Positions 12,887 to 19,517 of a stretch of DNA of 64,000 nucleotides are shown here, in pieces; position 1 is the stretch's first letter, and every line of letters starts with the position of its first letter. The position numbers and the translations under genes were made by a program. This DNA is from Okibacterium fritillariae. Its GTDB lineage: Bacteria; Actinomycetota; Actinomycetes; Actinomycetales; Microbacteriaceae. Below the pieces are notes generated by a model. The model was not told the origin of the DNA, searched no databases, and saw only the letters and a program-made list of their open reading frames with translations. The stretch lies in contig NZ_FUZP01000003.1 in NCBI RefSeq assembly GCF_900167575.1, forward strand, positions 310,001-374,000. The letters run 5' to 3'.

Positions 12887-13240
12887 CTACGGGCGGGGTC
12901 GACGCACGCTTCGTAGTTCCAACGCTAAAATCGCGACGCCAACGGGAACGAGGATCCCGAAATCCCACCAGGGTTCGGGGAGGAATACGGATCTCAGCGA
13001 CCCGTTTCCATCCGAGGAGACACAGGTTGTGCCGAGAGGCACAAACGAGTGCACCTGATAGACGCCCTCTGAGACATCCGTATCGATTGGAGCCTGTAGG
13101 CAGGTTTGGGCAGCGACGCCCCAGTACGTTCGTTGGTGATAGAGCGTGGTCGCTATGAGCCACAGAACGAAGAACGCGTAGAGCGCGAAGAGCGCGAGAA
13201 CTCGCACGCGTTTCATAGGGCCCAGCCACCGCCAGATCAT
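12887..13240 (-). CDS. hypothetical membrane protein, two helices
   Basis: ATG 13240 after GGGGGAACCTG gives 117 residues; ATG 13216 is an alternative. Two membrane helices are visible: VLALFALYAFFVLWLIATT near the N-terminus and WDFGILVPVGVAILALEL near the C-terminus. Between them is a loop of about 50 residues with two cysteines (AQTCLQAP, GTTCVSS) that probably faces outside. A basic tail (RSVRRPRP) stays inside. No known family was recognised. It is transcribed alone and divergently from the SIR2-like gene. Confidence 0.65.
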   Translation of the reverse strand: MIWRWLGPMKRVRVLALFALYAFFVLWLIATTLYHQRTYWGVAAQTCLQAPIDTDVSEGVYQVHSFVPLGTTCVSSDGNGSLRSVFLPEPWWDFGILVPVGVAILALELRSVRRPRP

Positions 13241-13440
13241 CAGGTTCCCCCTGAAGCATCGCGCTTCAGCAGTCAACACATTGTCAGTCCCTCATGGTGA
13301 TTTTCAAGCTGATGAATGACGCAAACGGCCTGGGCAGCCCCAACGTCCTGACTCTCCACAGTTCAAGTGAGGGGTGTATCTTTTCCCGCCGGCAGAGGAT
13401 AGGAAGGTACTAATACATCAGCGGCGGAGGGGATCACGAC

Positions 13441-14847
13441 ATGAGCGCACCAGATTTATCGGACGAGATCATGTCTCAGCTGAAGGAATCGGGTGCCGAA
13501 AAACACGTCACTCTACTTCTTGGTGCCGGAGCGTCAACGACCTCCGGCCTCCCGGGGTGGGACGAACTGACGGTACGCCTTCTTATGGGCAGCGGGATAG
13601 TGCCAAACGAAGAGACGGCCAATCTGCTTCTGAAGAGGCAGGACCCTCTCATCGTGGTGGAAGCTGCTCGCGCGATGCATCCAGATGATTGGGTACGCAA
13701 AGTCAGATCAGCCTTGTATCGAGGCGTCGTCTCAACCGAGTTTTCTCCGTTGCATCTCGCCGCAGTATCGCATCTTCTCGGCGGAGACCGAGGCGATACA
13801 AGTCTGTTGACGCTGAACTTCGACACCCTTCTCGAAGAGGCAATCGAAAGAGAGACGGGGGAGGATGTGCTCTCCGTCTCGGACTCCGCAGATAGCGGCG
13901 AGCTATTCACCGTCCATCATCTCCATGGGGTCGTGAGCCCGACGGGCACCAAGGACGTGATCTTGGCGCTTACGGACTTTCTCGAGGTGGTGAATACGGC
14001 GGACTCGTGGCAACTCGAGTACCTTCGCTCCGCTGTGACTCGCGGTGCCGTGATCATCGCGGGGACCTCCTATCGCGACCCAGACGTCAGGCAGTGGTTG
14101 CATGCTGCGCGGCAACATTCGCCGGCCGATCATGCCGTCCTGGTTTTGCTGGCCAGGCAAGGGTTCGATGTCAGCAGCGCGGAATTCGCGAATCTTAAAG
14201 ATGCACTCTTCAAACAATGGGAGGCCGTTGGATTGCGAGCCGTTCTTCTCGATGACCATTCAGACGCGGCCCAGGTCATCCGCGAGCTGAGACACGTTAA
14301 CGATCCGTCATATATGGCACCCCAGGAGAGAGCCGCGATGATTTGGAAGCATCATTGCGAGCACTTCGAGGCGCTGCAATCGGAGTACGTGGAAGCACTA
14401 CGTTTGGATTCAACAGAGATGCGATCAATGTTGGATGTGGATCTCTTGAACATGACCATTTGGCTTTCCAACGGAAAAAAGGAGCTCGTCCGCTGGGCGG
14501 CGGAAGACCGGATATACCTTGACCTGGATAGCCTTCGCGCGGTACAAACTGGCTACGACAGCTCCTGGATTGCAGGGCAAGCCCTGGGGGCCGACACTCT
14601 CCTTATCAAGGACGTTGAGCCTTCGGGCACACGGCGTTGGAAGTCGGTGCTTGCCATCCCAATCCCAGCTCCTCACCCTCATCTCCCCACAATGACTGCT
14701 GCGGTCCTGACGATCGGTTTGCCCGGACGCGCCAATCAGTATGAGGACTCGAAAGTTCTTTGGTTGGGGTTGCTTTCTGAGATCGCAGACTCATGGAGCA
14801 CGCGCATCACACACGCTGTTTTCGAGGACAACAGAGCTAGTATCTAG
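13441..14847 (+). CDS. SIR2-like NADase-type protein with C-terminal GAF-like domain (putative defence protein)
   Basis: This 468-residue protein starts at ATG 13441 behind GGAGGGG. Residues 20-285 look like the SIR2_2 fold. VTLLLGAGAST (Gly28-Gly30) is the nucleotide loop, LTLNFDTLLEEA carries Asn126 and Asp128, VHHLHG carries His162, and GTSYRDPDVRQWL is the last cofactor block. In bacterial immune proteins such domains destroy NAD+ after phage sensing; the zinc-binding cysteines of deacetylase sirtuins are absent. Residues 330-458 resemble a GAF sensor fold (WIAGQALGADTLLI, WKSVLAIPIP, AAVLTIGLPG). A 58-residue gene follows 20 bases downstream. Third-position GC is visibly lower than in flanking genes, suggesting transfer. 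The SIR2-like call is good; the GAF call and the role are inferences. Confidence 0.83.
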   Translation: MSAPDLSDEIMSQLKESGAEKHVTLLLGAGASTTSGLPGWDELTVRLLMGSGIVPNEETANLLLKRQDPLIVVEAARAMHPDDWVRKVRSALYRGVVSTEFSPLHLAAVSHLLGGDRGDTSLLTLNFDTLLEEAIERETGEDVLSVSDSADSGELFTVHHLHGVVSPTGTKDVILALTDFLEVVNTADSWQLEYLRSAVTRGAVIIAGTSYRDPDVRQWLHAARQHSPADHAVLVLLARQGFDVSSAEFANLKDALFKQWEAVGLRAVLLDDHSDAAQVIRELRHVNDPSYMAPQERAAMIWKHHCEHFEALQSEYVEALRLDSTEMRSMLDVDLLNMTIWLSNGKKELVRWAAEDRIYLDLDSLRAVQTGYDSSWIAGQALGADTLLIKDVEPSGTRRWKSVLAIPIPAPHPHLPTMTAAVLTIGLPGRANQYEDSKVLWLGLLSEIADSWSTRITHAVFEDNRASI

Positions 14848-14867
14848 AGACAAACAGGGGAGGACGC

Positions 14868-15044
14868 ATGGCAGAGAACAGAAGCTCGTTCCAGAACCTT
14901 GGCGGCGGCGTTTACCGGGTCGGCGGCGCTCACAGAAGTGCGGTCACCGGGCGCTACGTCAATTCATCCGCAGCCGCTAGCAACCCGCGCACGACAAGCA
15001 CAGAGCACAATAATTCACACGGTTCCAAACCTTCACAGGGCTGA
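14868..15044 (+). CDS. 58-residue protein with SAVTGRYV motif
   Basis: ATG 14868 lies six bases after a strong GGGGAGGA, and 20 bases after the SIR2-like stop, so the two genes are very probably one transcript. The product opens with MAENRSSFQN and a Gly-rich stretch, then carries GAHRSAVTGRYV and ASNPRTTSTE, and ends in a polar Asn/His/Ser/Gly tail. A short arrangement of GRYV followed by a few Ala and NPRTT-x-TE is, from memory, widespread in small unannotated actinobacterial proteins. It has no signal peptide, membrane helix or cysteine. It could be a partner, ligand or regulator of the SIR2-like protein; this is inference. Confidence 0.72.
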   Translation: MAENRSSFQNLGGGVYRVGGAHRSAVTGRYVNSSAAASNPRTTSTEHNNSHGSKPSQG

Positions 15045-15432
15045 GTCCTGAGGGAAGACTGTGCGGCGTGCGCTCCAGCGGGTCGCGCAGAACGCTAGGT
15101 TGACGAGTCTGGGTTGATGCGCGTGACGAGTCGCGTTTGTCGGCCATTGCGCGGTGTGACACACCGCAGATAGTGGTCGCGAAGTCGTTCAGCGACATGT
15201 CCATGGTGTTGAGCACGTGGATTTAGTGGGTGAGTCACTTCAGGGCAGATTGTTGGTCTTCTCGCCGCAACCAACGCCGGTCTGCCGCGGTCACTCGTCC
15301 GACCTCCTCTGGCGGGCAAGCAAGCATGTCAGCCTTTGTACGCCCCGGCGATCCACTCCCCCTGCGTTATCACCACAGGTAGCCTGCGCTCACTGCCTCG
15401 TCACCGCTGACGCAAGACACGCCGGTTCGAGT
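15045..15432. other. 388-base intergenic region with decayed gene fragment
   Basis: No intact gene was found here, between convergent genes. Bases about 15069-15106 (gcgctccagcgggtcgcgca and onward) closely match bases about 15661-15700 of the neighbouring membrane-protein gene, with small deletions, so this looks like a decayed partial copy. A perfect 17-base palindrome lies at 15151-15167. The rest shows short broken frames only. Confidence 0.55.
15151..15167. repeat. perfect 17-base palindrome
   Basis: GCGGTGTG and CACACCGC are perfect inverted arms around one central A. It lies in a gene-free convergent region, so it could be a terminator stem, a regulator site or part of a lost element. 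Confidence 0.55.
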
Positions 15433-16329
15433 TCACGCTGAGGTGCCGGCCTGGGCTTCGGCGAGATCTCGTCGAACTTCGTCTCGGATGCTGCGGCGGT
15501 CGTTGTGGAGGTAGAAGAGGACGTAGGCGACGAGCGAGAGGGCGATGCCGGCGCAGAAGACGACGGATGAGGGCGCCAGTTTGAGGTCGGCGGCGCGGAT
15601 GATGAGGGCGAGGACGATCGCGACGAGGCTGACGATCTGGGCCTGGAAGACCGCGCGGAAGGCGCTCCAGCGGGGGTCGCGCAGGAGCGCGAGGTTGACG
15701 ATTCCGGGAAGGGTGAGGGCGGCGCCCATGACCTGGGCCGTGAGCGGGGTGAGCGTCCAGGGCCACGCCGCGATGAGGGCATCCGCTTGGAAGAAGAGGG
15801 CGAGACCCGTGGCCAGCGACGCGACACCGATGGCCGCGAGGACGATGCGGGTGGGGAGGGGGACGCGGTAGTCGCGGGGGGCGTCGGTGCCGTCATCCGT
15901 GTGTCTGTTGACGATCATCAGGATGACGACGAGCACGGGGGTCGTGAGGTAGAGGGCGAACCAGACGATGAACGAGATGTGGCCGGGGTGGAATTTGTCG
16001 AGGTGGAGGAGGGTCGCGATGAGGAGGAGCGTGGCGAAGACGAGGACCGCCGGGATGCCGCGGTTGACGGCGCGCCAGTTGTTGGGGCGTGCGGCGGCGG
16101 CGAAGAACCAGATGCCGCCGAGGTAGGCGCTCGCGAGGAACATGGCGGTGAGGGGCGGCTCGATGGTCCAGGCGAAGAGGGCGTCTGTGGTGCCGGGGAG
16201 GAGGTAGAGGAGGACGAAGGCGGCCGCGAGGAACGGGAGGAGGAAGGCGGCGAGGAGGCGGGTGTAGAGCTCGGCGCCGGTGGGGCGGGCGGCGGAATGC
16301 TTGTCGACCACCGCTGTGCTCTCGGTCAT
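15433..16329 (-). CDS. multi-pass integral membrane protein of unknown function
   Basis: This 298-residue protein has about eight hydrophobic segments, for example LLAAFLLPFLAAAFVLLYLL, PVLVVILMIV and IVSLVAIVLALII, and no signal peptide or catalytic motif. The N-terminus (MTESTAVVDKHSAAR) and the C-terminus (DEVRRDLAEAQAG) are polar. Its start overlaps the stop of the DUF4062-STAND gene as ATGA, so both are translated from one message. That pairing suggests that the membrane protein acts with the large ATPase, either as an effector or as a sensed partner. The alternative is an unrelated channel or housekeeping protein. A decayed partial copy of this gene lies just beyond its 3' end. Confidence 0.8.
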   Translation of the reverse strand: MTESTAVVDKHSAARPTGAELYTRLLAAFLLPFLAAAFVLLYLLPGTTDALFAWTIEPPLTAMFLASAYLGGIWFFAAAARPNNWRAVNRGIPAVLVFATLLLIATLLHLDKFHPGHISFIVWFALYLTTPVLVVILMIVNRHTDDGTDAPRDYRVPLPTRIVLAAIGVASLATGLALFFQADALIAAWPWTLTPLTAQVMGAALTLPGIVNLALLRDPRWSAFRAVFQAQIVSLVAIVLALIIRAADLKLAPSSVVFCAGIALSLVAYVLFYLHNDRRSIRDEVRRDLAEAQAGTSA

Positions 16330-19106
16330 GAACGGGCCGCCTGTTCGAGGTCGGAAACGGTTTCGGTTTCGGCTCCGGCTCCGGCTTCGGCTTCGGCTTC
16401 GTCCGGAACGGGAGGCCGCGGCGTTGGAGGGCTCACGGCGAGCGCGACCGCTGCGGCTGGGAGGAGCAGGCGGCCACGCTCTTGGGCCGCGAGCAGTTGC
16501 GCCGCGGCATCGCCCGCCAGGATGGGCGCGATGGCTTGCTGGTGGAACGAGAACGTCGGCACGTTGTAGAGGCCCGACCGCTCGCGCAGCGCTTCCGAGG
16601 CTCCGAGGAGGAGGCCGGCCCGCTCGACGTCTCCGTCGGCCGCGGCGACCGCGACGGCACCCTCGAGGCCGTACGCCATGCCCTCGGTGTGCCCGACGAG
16701 CGCCGAGGCGCTGAGACTTTCTCGGAACAGCACGCGGGCGGTGTCGACATCCCCGAGCATGAGGTGCGCCCAGCCCAGGTGGTTCTCGGCGATGGCGGCA
16801 CTGAGGTCGTCGCCCTGCCGCCGCGCGACCTCGAGGCTCTCTTCGAAACGGTTGAGCGCCCGGCGCAGCTTCTGGTCGAAGATGGCCACACGGCCGAGCG
16901 TCACGAGCACGAGCGCCTCACCCCACGTGTCGCCGGCCGAGCGCGTGAGGGTGAGGGATCGTTCGAGTTCATCCTCGGCTTCGGCGGGTTCGGGCGGCGT
17001 CGTGGTGAGGAGCGCGAGCGCCAGGGATGTCCGGGCGAGCGCCTCCCCCGAGCGATCGTCGGCGGCGTGAAAGAGCGTCGAGCTCTCGGTCAGACCCGGG
17101 ATGACCTCGACCGGCTGCTGCCAGAACGTGATCGCGCGGCTGTAGTAGAGCGCGGCGGCCCGGCTCGAGTCGTCGACGGCGTCACCGGATGCGAGCAGCT
17201 CATCCATCCAGCCCCGCACCTCGTTGAGCAACCCGCCCATCCACCAATAGACGTAGAGGTCCCAGGCGAGGCGGGCCAGGCGATCCCACTCGCGGTGCTC
17301 GATCAAGTAGTGCACGGCGGCGCGCAGGTTGTCGCGGTCGTCGGCGAGCTGACGCATGGTCGCGTTCTGGGTGCGGCCGCGCAGGAGCGGTACCGACGCG
17401 TGACCCAGGTCGGCGAAGTAGCGGGCGTGGGCGCGGTGGGTGGCGGCACCGGCATCCGATGCTTCGAGACCTCGGCGGGCATAGTCGCGCACCGAGCCGA
17501 ACAGGGTGAAGCGCGCATCCTCGCCGTGGTCTTGTTGGCGGATGAGGCTCGAATCGGCGAGCGCGCCCAGGCTCTCGAGCACGTCGACGTCGACGCCTTC
17601 ACCCGCGGCGCCGTCACCCGCAACGCCTCCCCCGACGGCACCGTCACCCGCTGTGCCGTCACCCGCGACGCCGCCACCCGCGACGGCCTCGGCTGCGGTG
17701 AGCGAGAAGCCGCCCGAGAACACGCCCAGCCGCTGCAGCAGGGTTTTCTCGCGCGGGGGCAGCAGCTGCACGCTCCACTCGATGGTGTCCTCCAGGCTGC
17801 GTTGCCGCGCGGGCAGGTGCGGGGTGCCCGAGACGAGGCCGCGGTGCTGTTCGAGGCGCGTGAGAACAACGGATGGGGGCAGCAAACGGATGCTCGCCGC
17901 CGCCAGTTCGAGCGCCAGCGGCACGCCGTCGAGTTTGCGGCAGATGCCGACGACGGCCGCCACGTTGTCGTCGGTGACGACGAACTCGGGGGCCACCGAG
18001 CGGGCCCGCTGCACGAAGAGTTGCACGGCCGCCGATTCGAGCACCGATGCGACATCCCGATCGCCGGCCGCGGGGAGCGCGAGCGGGCCGAGGTCGACGC
18101 GGTATTCGCCGAGCACGCGCAGCACCGTGCGACTGGTCACGAGGAACGACAAGCCGGGGAGCGCGGCGAGCAGGGCGATCAGGGCGGGCGTGGCGCCCAT
18201 GACCTGCTCGAAGTTGTCCGCGATGATGAGCACGCGGCGGCCCCGCAGCGCGGTGGTGAGCGTGTCGACGAGGGGTTCGGCACCCGTGTCGCGCACGCCG
18301 AGCGCATCGGCGATGGCCGCGGGCACCTGGTCGGCGTCGTGCGCGGCGGCGAGCGAGACGAAGACGACACCATCCGGGAATTCCTCACGAACCGAGCGGC
18401 CCAGTTCGATCGCGAGGCGGCTCTTGCCGACGCCACCCGGGCCGGTCAGCGTGACGAGGCGCACGCCATCCTGCAGCAGGAGGGAACGGGCCCGCTCGAA
18501 CTCGCGGTCGCGCCCGAGCAGCGAGGTCAGCGGGGCCGGGATGGCGCCGGCACCGTTCTCCGAGGGCAAATATTGCTGCGGCGGCGCGATCACGGCGGCG
18601 GCGCCGTCGGCCGACGCGTTCAGGGAGGCGTCGAAGCGGTCGGCCAGCAGGGTGGCCAGGTCGGCCTCGACCAGCTCGCGCAACTCCTCCACCGTGTCGA
18701 ACGATTTATAGGATGCGCGGTCGTCGTTCTTGATGCGCTGCAGCAACTCGACCAGGCGCGGCTCGAGCACGTCGTCGGTCGACTTGATGTAGATCAGGCG
18801 CGGCATCGCGGGCGGCGCGAGGTTGTATTCATCCTCGAGACCCGAGACGGTCTCATCAGGCGCGACCCAGCCGTAGCGGCGCCAATAGATGCCGAGGAAG
18901 ATCTCGCTGCGCTGCAGGTAGGAGCGATAGAGATCGCGCGGGGGATGCGGGCGAGCCCCGAGCTCGAACATGACGGGGGCCAGCCGCATCCGCTCGATCG
19001 CGCCGCGCACGGCCTGACGCTCCTCGGCCAGGTCGCGCAGCGTCGAGCTGACGAAGACGCGGAGAAGTTGATCGGGGGTTCTGATCGAAACGGGAGTGAG
19101 ATTCAT
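16326..19106 (-). CDS. DUF4062 - STAND (NB-ARC-like) ATPase - TPR protein
   Basis: ATG 19106 (MNLTPVSIRTPDQLLRVFVSS) is chosen over a twelve-codon longer frame; the product has 926 residues. DUF4062 spans about 15-100 (RVFVSSTLRDLAEERQAV, SEIFLGIYWRRYGW). A STAND ATPase follows: Walker A TGPGGVGKSRLA (221-232), Walker B RRVLIIADNFEQV, VTSRT and GVPLALELAA. A Gly/Ala/Asp linker of imperfect repeats (475-505) leads into helical repeats of TPR type up to about residue 880. No DNA-binding domain is seen, unlike LuxR/AfsR regulators of similar layout. STAND proteins oligomerise after ligand binding; many defend against phage, others regulate. It is coupled by ATGA to the membrane protein gene. Confidence 0.88.
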   Translation of the reverse strand: MNLTPVSIRTPDQLLRVFVSSTLRDLAEERQAVRGAIERMRLAPVMFELGARPHPPRDLYRSYLQRSEIFLGIYWRRYGWVAPDETVSGLEDEYNLAPPAMPRLIYIKSTDDVLEPRLVELLQRIKNDDRASYKSFDTVEELRELVEADLATLLADRFDASLNASADGAAAVIAPPQQYLPSENGAGAIPAPLTSLLGRDREFERARSLLLQDGVRLVTLTGPGGVGKSRLAIELGRSVREEFPDGVVFVSLAAAHDADQVPAAIADALGVRDTGAEPLVDTLTTALRGRRVLIIADNFEQVMGATPALIALLAALPGLSFLVTSRTVLRVLGEYRVDLGPLALPAAGDRDVASVLESAAVQLFVQRARSVAPEFVVTDDNVAAVVGICRKLDGVPLALELAAASIRLLPPSVVLTRLEQHRGLVSGTPHLPARQRSLEDTIEWSVQLLPPREKTLLQRLGVFSGGFSLTAAEAVAGGGVAGDGTAGDGAVGGGVAGDGAAGEGVDVDVLESLGALADSSLIRQQDHGEDARFTLFGSVRDYARRGLEASDAGAATHRAHARYFADLGHASVPLLRGRTQNATMRQLADDRDNLRAAVHYLIEHREWDRLARLAWDLYVYWWMGGLLNEVRGWMDELLASGDAVDDSSRAAALYYSRAITFWQQPVEVIPGLTESSTLFHAADDRSGEALARTSLALALLTTTPPEPAEAEDELERSLTLTRSAGDTWGEALVLVTLGRVAIFDQKLRRALNRFEESLEVARRQGDDLSAAIAENHLGWAHLMLGDVDTARVLFRESLSASALVGHTEGMAYGLEGAVAVAAADGDVERAGLLLGASEALRERSGLYNVPTFSFHQQAIAPILAGDAAAQLLAAQERGRLLLPAAAVALAVSPPTPRPPVPDEAEAEAGAGAETETVSDLEQAARS
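17597..17687 (-). repeat. imperfect repeat encoding a Gly/Ala/Asp-rich linker
   Basis: GCCGTCACCCGC and close variants recur with 10-18-base spacing inside the STAND gene. In protein they give repeated A-G-D-G and V-A-G-D-G units between the ATPase and helical regions. Copy number could change by slippage without breaking the frame. Confidence 0.6.
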
Positions 19107-19517
19107 GAAGCATCCGATGTGAGCGCTCTCGTGACCGCACACAGGCGGCGTGAAAAATGAGGATGTCCGTGGCGACGGCTTCGGCGAGAGGACCCCGTGA
19201 GGCGCAGGCGGCCTCGAACGGGTGCAGTCGATCAGGCGCGATCGACCGGGCGGGATGCCGTCACCCTATCCCGCGCTCCCCCTGCGCGGCCATCGTCCTC
19301 AAGTACAGGAAACCTCACCCCCGGGGTGGGTACGAAGTACCACGACGCGTCACGCGCCGCTCGTCGAGCGGCACACCGGCCCACAGCGACGTTCGACGGT
19401 CGCGACAGGAGGGCACCTGCGGAAATCCGCCAAATACTCGCGGAATCCCGCTAGGGCGAGGGGCGTCAGAAGCACCGGTGTCGGATGATCTTGACGGCGG
19501 GCACTCCGGTCGCCAGC
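19107..19517. other. 411-base divergent intergenic region
   Basis: This region separates the STAND gene (minus) from the glyoxalase-like gene (plus) and should hold both promoters. It contains GGTAC-GAA-GTACC at 19329-19341, an inverted repeat that almost extends to GTGGGTAC/GTACCAC, and next to it CACCCC-C-GGGGTG at about 19316-19328. No ribosome-site-preceded small gene was recognised. Confidence 0.5.
19329..19341. promoter_or_regulatory. inverted repeat upstream of the STAND gene
   Basis: GGTAC and GTACC flank the central GAA, about 220 bases upstream of the STAND start and 180 before the glyoxalase gene. It is a possible operator. The regulator is unknown. Confidence 0.35.

Follow-up and report, generated by a model that had tools for sequence, protein, structure and literature searches.

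A SIR2-GAF gene and its conserved small partner gene as a candidate mobile, NAD+-depleting conflict module of Actinomycetota

The window, a 64,000-nucleotide stretch of Okibacterium fritillariae DNA (contig NZ_FUZP01000003.1), contains a gene for a 468-residue protein, here called SIR2-GAF, followed by a gene for a 58-residue protein, here called the mini. The features of the locus, in window coordinates, are as follows.

13000..15488, no strand: low-GC stretch that holds the cassette, 56-59% GC; synteny with the sister species starts at 15489
13425..13431, + strand: putative ribosome-binding region of the SIR2 gene, GGAGGGG-like, read from the sequence itself
13441..14847, + strand: SIR2-GAF gene, ATG start, 468 aa, predicted NADase effector
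13441..14295, + strand: SIR2 domain, residues 1-285, from alignment to BcThsA and 24 relatives
13816-13818 and 13924-13926, + strand: codons of the catalytic residues Asn126 and His162, respectively, from the BcThsA alignment
14305..14844, + strand: long helix and GAF domain, residues 289-468, from AlphaFold2, Foldseek, and HHalign
14857..14863, + strand: ribosome-binding site of the mini gene, GGGGAGG, read from the sequence itself
14868..15044, + strand: mini gene, ATG start, 58 aa, conserved partner of SIR2-GAF; SIR2-specific N-terminal segment SFQNLGGGVYRV, then the family motif RSAVTGRYV

The original prediction had described a tiny gene 20 bases downstream of the SIR2 gene with a ribosome-binding site of its own, and both the 20-nt gap behind the SIR2 gene stop and the GGGGAGG upstream of 14868-15044 bear this out. 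Neither an Rfam element nor a terminator was found within the locus. The pair of ORFs is not a chance feature, as relatives were found in about 20 genera and every one has a small gene directly downstream.

The motifs quoted earlier for the larger protein (LLLGAGAST, LTLNFDTLLEEA, HHLHG, and GTSYRDP) were all found in SIR2-GAF, and its assignment to SIR2_2 was upheld by Pfam with an E value of 3.9e-17. An AlphaFold2 model of the 468-residue protein, for which 24 relatives served as input, had a mean pLDDT of 89.6, and when the full model was compared to the PDB with Foldseek, the top matches were exclusively NADase effectors (ThsA, SPARSA, KomC/KomBC, DSR2, and SIR2-HerA). A profile search aligned Asn126 with the asparagine of the ThsA TTNYD motif and His162 with the histidine of ThsA MHG, and both residues were invariant among the 24 relatives; the 8bto chain in the ThsA alignment has alanine where Asn126 falls. 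A Cys4 zinc site is a feature of the deacylase sirtuins. That site is absent here, as had been predicted, because the whole protein contains a single cysteine. SIR2-GAF thus presents the features of SIR2_2 NADase effectors, namely, a Rossmann fold of the SIR2 kind, the catalytic Asn and His, and no zinc Cys4, and the fold match, the invariance of Asn126 and His162, and the missing zinc site together argue for NADase chemistry. We conclude that SIR2-GAF, as modeled, belongs by fold and active site with the SIR2 NADase effectors and is predicted to hydrolyze NAD+.

The C-terminal part of the protein was modeled separately. AlphaFold2 returned a GAF fold for residues 289-468 alone, with a pLDDT of 92.7 and with strands and helices in GAF order. 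Foldseek comparison of this part to the PDB indicated that the best matches were all GAF domains (1ykd, 2vjw, 1mc0, 5hl6, and 1f5m), the leading ones scoring at E values of 7e-5 to 6e-4 with a probability of 1.00; 1ykd and 1mc0 are cyclic-nucleotide-binding GAFs. HHalign against 15 GAF_2 sequences from related genomes produced a collinear alignment (P = 1.4e-4). The GAF-like region proposed earlier for residues ~330-460 is therefore confirmed by both the structure model and the Foldseek matches, with membership in the GAF superfamily judged by fold and not by an HMM match. In Pfam scans the C-terminal third had no match and no Pfam GAF model detected the domain, and an hmmsearch of PDB sequences with a profile of the GAF region found nothing. 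Among 297 class genomes, the C-terminal domain was not found joined to other effectors, and a single weak partial match appeared. A match to the C-terminal region at locus L011 was rejected, as it falls in an unrelated phosphotransacetylase-like frame. Because Pfam gave no match and the domain was not found elsewhere in the 297 class genomes, we regard this part of the protein as a divergent GAF that goes with this SIR2 family.

The mini gene was examined across homologous loci. A small ORF of 42 to 75 codons that bears [TS]G[RK][YF] lies directly after the SIR2-GAF stop in 27/27 intact loci, versus 2/364 for the control, which consisted of other coding-like ORFs from the same loci. No intact SIR2-GAF gene among the loci examined was without a small downstream gene, the divergent loci L044 and L051 also have such an ORF, and in L029, L030, and L047 the stop and start codons overlap by 4 bp. 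Pairwise dN/dS values for the mini were mostly 0.12 to 0.20, with one pair at 0.55, so the mini is translated and has been held under purifying selection. Moreover, the distance matrices of SIR2 and mini were correlated with a Mantel r of 0.87, a value reached in 0/5,000 permutations and due in part to shared ancestry. The SIR2 gene was broken in three decayed loci, by one nonsense codon in L033, by two stops in L041, and by IS truncation in L026, and the mini was intact in 3/3, which is weak evidence because the mini is a small target. Minis that partner SIR2 carry an N-terminal segment of the SxQxLGxGxYRV type, with the clade-specific versions SFQSLGNGVYRV, RNAKTGSYTVRV, and VRKVSSNTFRVSS. 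Searches of the mini against Pfam, NCBIfam, PADLOC, and PHROGs gave no significant match. Tight linkage and co-conservation of the kind seen in type II toxin-antitoxin pairs are thus found for SIR2-GAF and the mini.

Full-length relatives of SIR2-GAF, at 34 to 62% identity, occur sporadically in Actinomycetota in about 20 genera, and 7/400 genomes of the family, including that of the window, carry one. The 26 named actinobacterial loci with relatives come from Cryobacterium, Clavibacter, Microbacterium, Arthrobacter, Georgenia, Mycetocola, Agrococcus, Propionibacterium, Aeromicrobium, Hoyosella, Blastococcus, Geodermatophilus, Curtobacterium, Nesterenkonia, Frigoribacterium, and further taxa, as far out as an Atopobiaceae bin. 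Relatives also reside on plasmids of Paenarthrobacter and Rhodococcus, most of which are conjugative or mobilizable, and none was found in the phage and viral contig collections searched. Lower third-position GC had earlier been taken as a hint of mobility, and that hint gained support from the dip to 56-59% GC at the cassette versus 65-72% in the flanks, from the conjugative or mobilizable plasmids, and from recombinases nearby. The sister species matches the gene order of the window only from 15489 to the right, and with this one-sided match no clean case of an empty cassette site was found there. A decayed partial copy of part of the neighboring membrane-protein gene (15053-15113 and 15645-15708) is found just downstream of the mini gene, a hint that recombination or duplication left a scar where synteny breaks off. 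Also near the cassette, on the minus strand at 16329-19142, is a gene for a 938-aa STAND-like protein with DUF4062, NB-ARC/AAA, and TPR parts. The sister species carries this gene too (about 91.5% DNA identity), which makes it a stable neighbor that lies outside the acquisition.

Gene neighborhoods were compared among the homologous loci. No third gene was widely common to them, resolvases being found in 7 loci and Fic in 4, and the unit therefore consists of two genes. Among the neighbors, dedicated defense models matched SoFic in three proteins and IetAS in two loci, and there were matches to Uzume and to a number of candidate (PDC) families. At a PADLOC threshold of E ≤ 1e-56 the neighbors matched SoFic, IetA, IetS, UzuA, dGTPase, and three PDC families; control genes, which were taken from genomes other than those of the neighbors, gave a cysteine-desulfurase-type and DNA-methylase-type set at that threshold among the matches listed, and the control matches listed overall were mostly generic ATPase, desulfurase, and methylase. 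Whether the pair is conserved and enriched beside defense genes had been named as a point to check; its conservation stood, and the enrichment was modest and is only suggestive. The cassettes of Curtobacterium (L046) and Frigoribacterium (L050) have the same S8-peptidase/AAA (IetAS) defense pair as their neighbor, at ~9.6 to 13.4 kb of these loci. Fic/SoFic-type genes are located a few kilobases from SIR2-GAF, upstream or nearby, in L027, L035, L037, and L047.

Our proposed reading, to which we give a probability of roughly 0.5, is that these two genes make up a mobile conflict module of Actinomycetota that depletes NAD+, in which the GAF domain acts as the switch and the mini as a regulator, most likely a labile inhibitor. 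The SIR2 domain would be an NADase rather than a deacylase and would normally be held off. The GAF switch, linked through a long helix of a kind that favors oligomerization, would respond either to a small molecule or to a protein. The mini would be a dedicated, antitoxin-like regulator of SIR2-GAF, its N-terminal segment binding the cognate protein and its SAxTGRYV half doing the job of a wider family. Infection, or loss of the element, would remove or override the mini, and the SIR2 domain would then destroy NAD+, causing a growth stop or cell death that blocks phage spread or enforces retention of the element. Reading the mini as an inhibitor draws on the decay pattern and the toxin-antitoxin-like anatomy, and an antiphage or addiction role is suggested by the mobility of the cassette and by what SIR2 proteins of this type are known to do (PMC10981675, PMC11204291, PMC11559045). 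The analysis shows the folds (as predictions), the conserved catalytic residues, the constant pairing, the co-variation, the selection, and the mobility; that the SIR2 domain acts as an NADase, that the mini inhibits it, what triggers the module, and that it works against phages are inferences. Several observations speak against this reading: the SIR2-GAF gene precedes the mini, a toxin-first order that is the less common one, related minis occur without SIR2, the enrichment near defense genes is modest with a control drawn from other genomes, and the phage and viral contigs searched do not carry the module.

In one alternative, the mini activates SIR2-GAF or serves as its sensor adaptor, such that SIR2-GAF is silent alone and its NADase is turned on when the mini, or a phage-modified or phage-bound mini, docks on the GAF domain. 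Strict pairing and co-variation would fit any obligate partner, and known SIR2 effectors such as ThsA and DSR2 stay inactive until something switches them on, in the case of DSR2 a tail-tube protein. The decayed loci, however, lose SIR2 and retain the mini. Constitutive production of the mini from the shared operon is also probable, which would be odd for a trigger unless the mini were modified. We regard activation by the mini as less likely than inhibition but as a serious alternative. A second alternative, which we consider unlikely, is that the GAF domain is a second-messenger receptor comparable to SLOG in ThsA, activated by a cyclic nucleotide or an NAD-derived signal from another source in the cell, with the mini as an accessory or a regulator of expression. 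Such a receptor would be in keeping with ThsA as the closest SIR2 match and with the presence of 1ykd and 1mc0, the cyclic-nucleotide binders, among the top GAF matches, but the lack of a third gene common to the loci leaves it with neither a cyclase nor a TIR partner, and GAF ligands are too diverse for the fold to point to any one of them.

SIR2 is also a deacylase fold, and the protein could in principle be a cellular regulatory enzyme, either an NAD-dependent deacylase or an NAD sensor, with no role in conflict. That reading is very improbable given NADase-type motifs, the missing zinc Cys4, best matches that are NADase effectors, plasmid carriage, and an occurrence as sporadic as 7 full-length genes in 400 family genomes. 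Finally, the mini could be an unrelated small gene hitchhiking downstream of SIR2-GAF, as its family does occur without SIR2, an idea that the 27/27 versus 2/364 pairing, the Mantel r of 0.87, and the SIR2-specific N-terminal segment make hardly credible.

The preferred reading, a two-gene NADase module controlled by the mini, was compared to known systems. ThsA of Thoeris, the best match of SIR2-GAF in both PADLOC and the PDB, resembles it in the N-terminal SIR2 NADase fold, the catalytic Asn and His, a length of ~480 aa, and a C-terminal sensor of small-molecule type. The sensor is SLOG in ThsA and GAF in SIR2-GAF, and neighbor clustering across the loci indicated that the TIR gene thsB is not conserved beside SIR2-GAF, where the mini gene is found instead. 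DSR1 and DSR2 share an N-terminal SIR2 NADase domain and a structural match but are ~1,000 to 1,260 aa long with a helical-repeat C terminus, whereas SIR2-GAF has 468 aa and an obligate mini; the Dsr1 model scored SIR2-GAF at 16.7 bits versus a cutoff of 1,400. A SIR2 NADase effector domain is likewise shared with KomC of KongMing, SIR2-APAZ of SPARSA, and SIR2-HerA of Nezha, but their partners KomA/KomB, short Ago, and HerA are not common to SIR2-GAF loci. Type II toxin-antitoxin systems are similar in having two genes, a tiny partner, mobility, sporadic occurrence, and a toxin-like gene that decays first; they differ in that the mini matches no known antitoxin family, and the toxin and antitoxin roles here are putative. 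As originally predicted, an arrangement with GAF in place of SLOG, HEPN, or STAND is unlike described systems: no description of SIR2 joined to GAF in defense was found in the literature searched, a coverage that excludes most subscription papers and preprints.

Known bacterial NADase effectors sense their triggers through SLOG, STAND, Argonaute, HAM1-like, or large helical parts, and GAF is a common small-molecule receptor of bacterial signaling. A GAF domain would thus be a new input for NAD-depleting suicide. Moreover, the constancy of the mini makes for a compact system of ~1.6 kb in which sensor, effector, and regulator could be separated in one experiment.

The SAVTGRYV mini had been put forward as a partner of SIR2-GAF; it is conserved in that position, but it is not unique to it, because the SAxTGRYV half also occurs without SIR2. 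In those cases RSAxTGRYV is often accompanied by TAARHPxTTVTE and is at times in tandem. Nearly all SIR2-free matches start at profile position 20 to 24, indicating that they do not have the N-terminal SxQxLGxGxYRV-type segment. The RSAxTGRYVxxxTAARHPxTTVTE family, encoded on plasmids and chromosomes of mycobacteria and other actinobacteria, resembles the C-terminal half of the window mini but is without the SFQxLGxGxYRV segment and has sigma-like or XRE-ImmA/IrrE genes as partners. No name for the wider family was found in Pfam, NCBIfam, or PHROGs, as far as searched. From these sequence patterns, we infer a fit between the N-terminal segment and the cognate SIR2-GAF, with the C-terminal half doing the common job of the mini family.

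A sigma-70-region-4-like protein is encoded near the mini in L061, L062, L091, L092, L094, and L095. XRE and ImmA/IrrE genes, usually divergent, are near the mini in L060, L093, L097, L099, L102, and L140, with ImmA/IrrE assigned by similarity or annotation in all six loci and XRE checked in some of them, and a HigBA-type pair is near the mini in L137. We tentatively suggest that SAxTGRYV minis are a general plug-in (an antitoxin, a trigger, or a protease-sensitive switch) of several actinobacterial conflict modules and that the added N-terminal segment adapts one branch to SIR2-GAF. If so, SIR2-GAF would be the first case of an NADase effector under the control of a GAF domain. On the mobile elements of actinobacteria, the wider mini family connects NADase modules with sigma-like and XRE-ImmA/IrrE ones.

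Several smaller observations concern the neighbors of SIR2-free minis. An unnamed protein of ~271 to 404 aa with a weak sigma-70 region 4 match is encoded just upstream of or near tandem-motif minis in mycobacterial and other actinobacterial elements, and the two may possibly form a separate two-gene regulatory module. A DUF2188-like small protein adjoins the mini, XRE, and ImmA/IrrE genes in L102, an annotated DUF2188 protein is near the mini in L061, and a DUF3892 protein is near the mini in L137. On a Rhodococcus plasmid (L138), a TIR-domain gene on the plus strand at 223-1833 (WP_100199326.1) lies ~2 kb upstream of a stand-alone mini.
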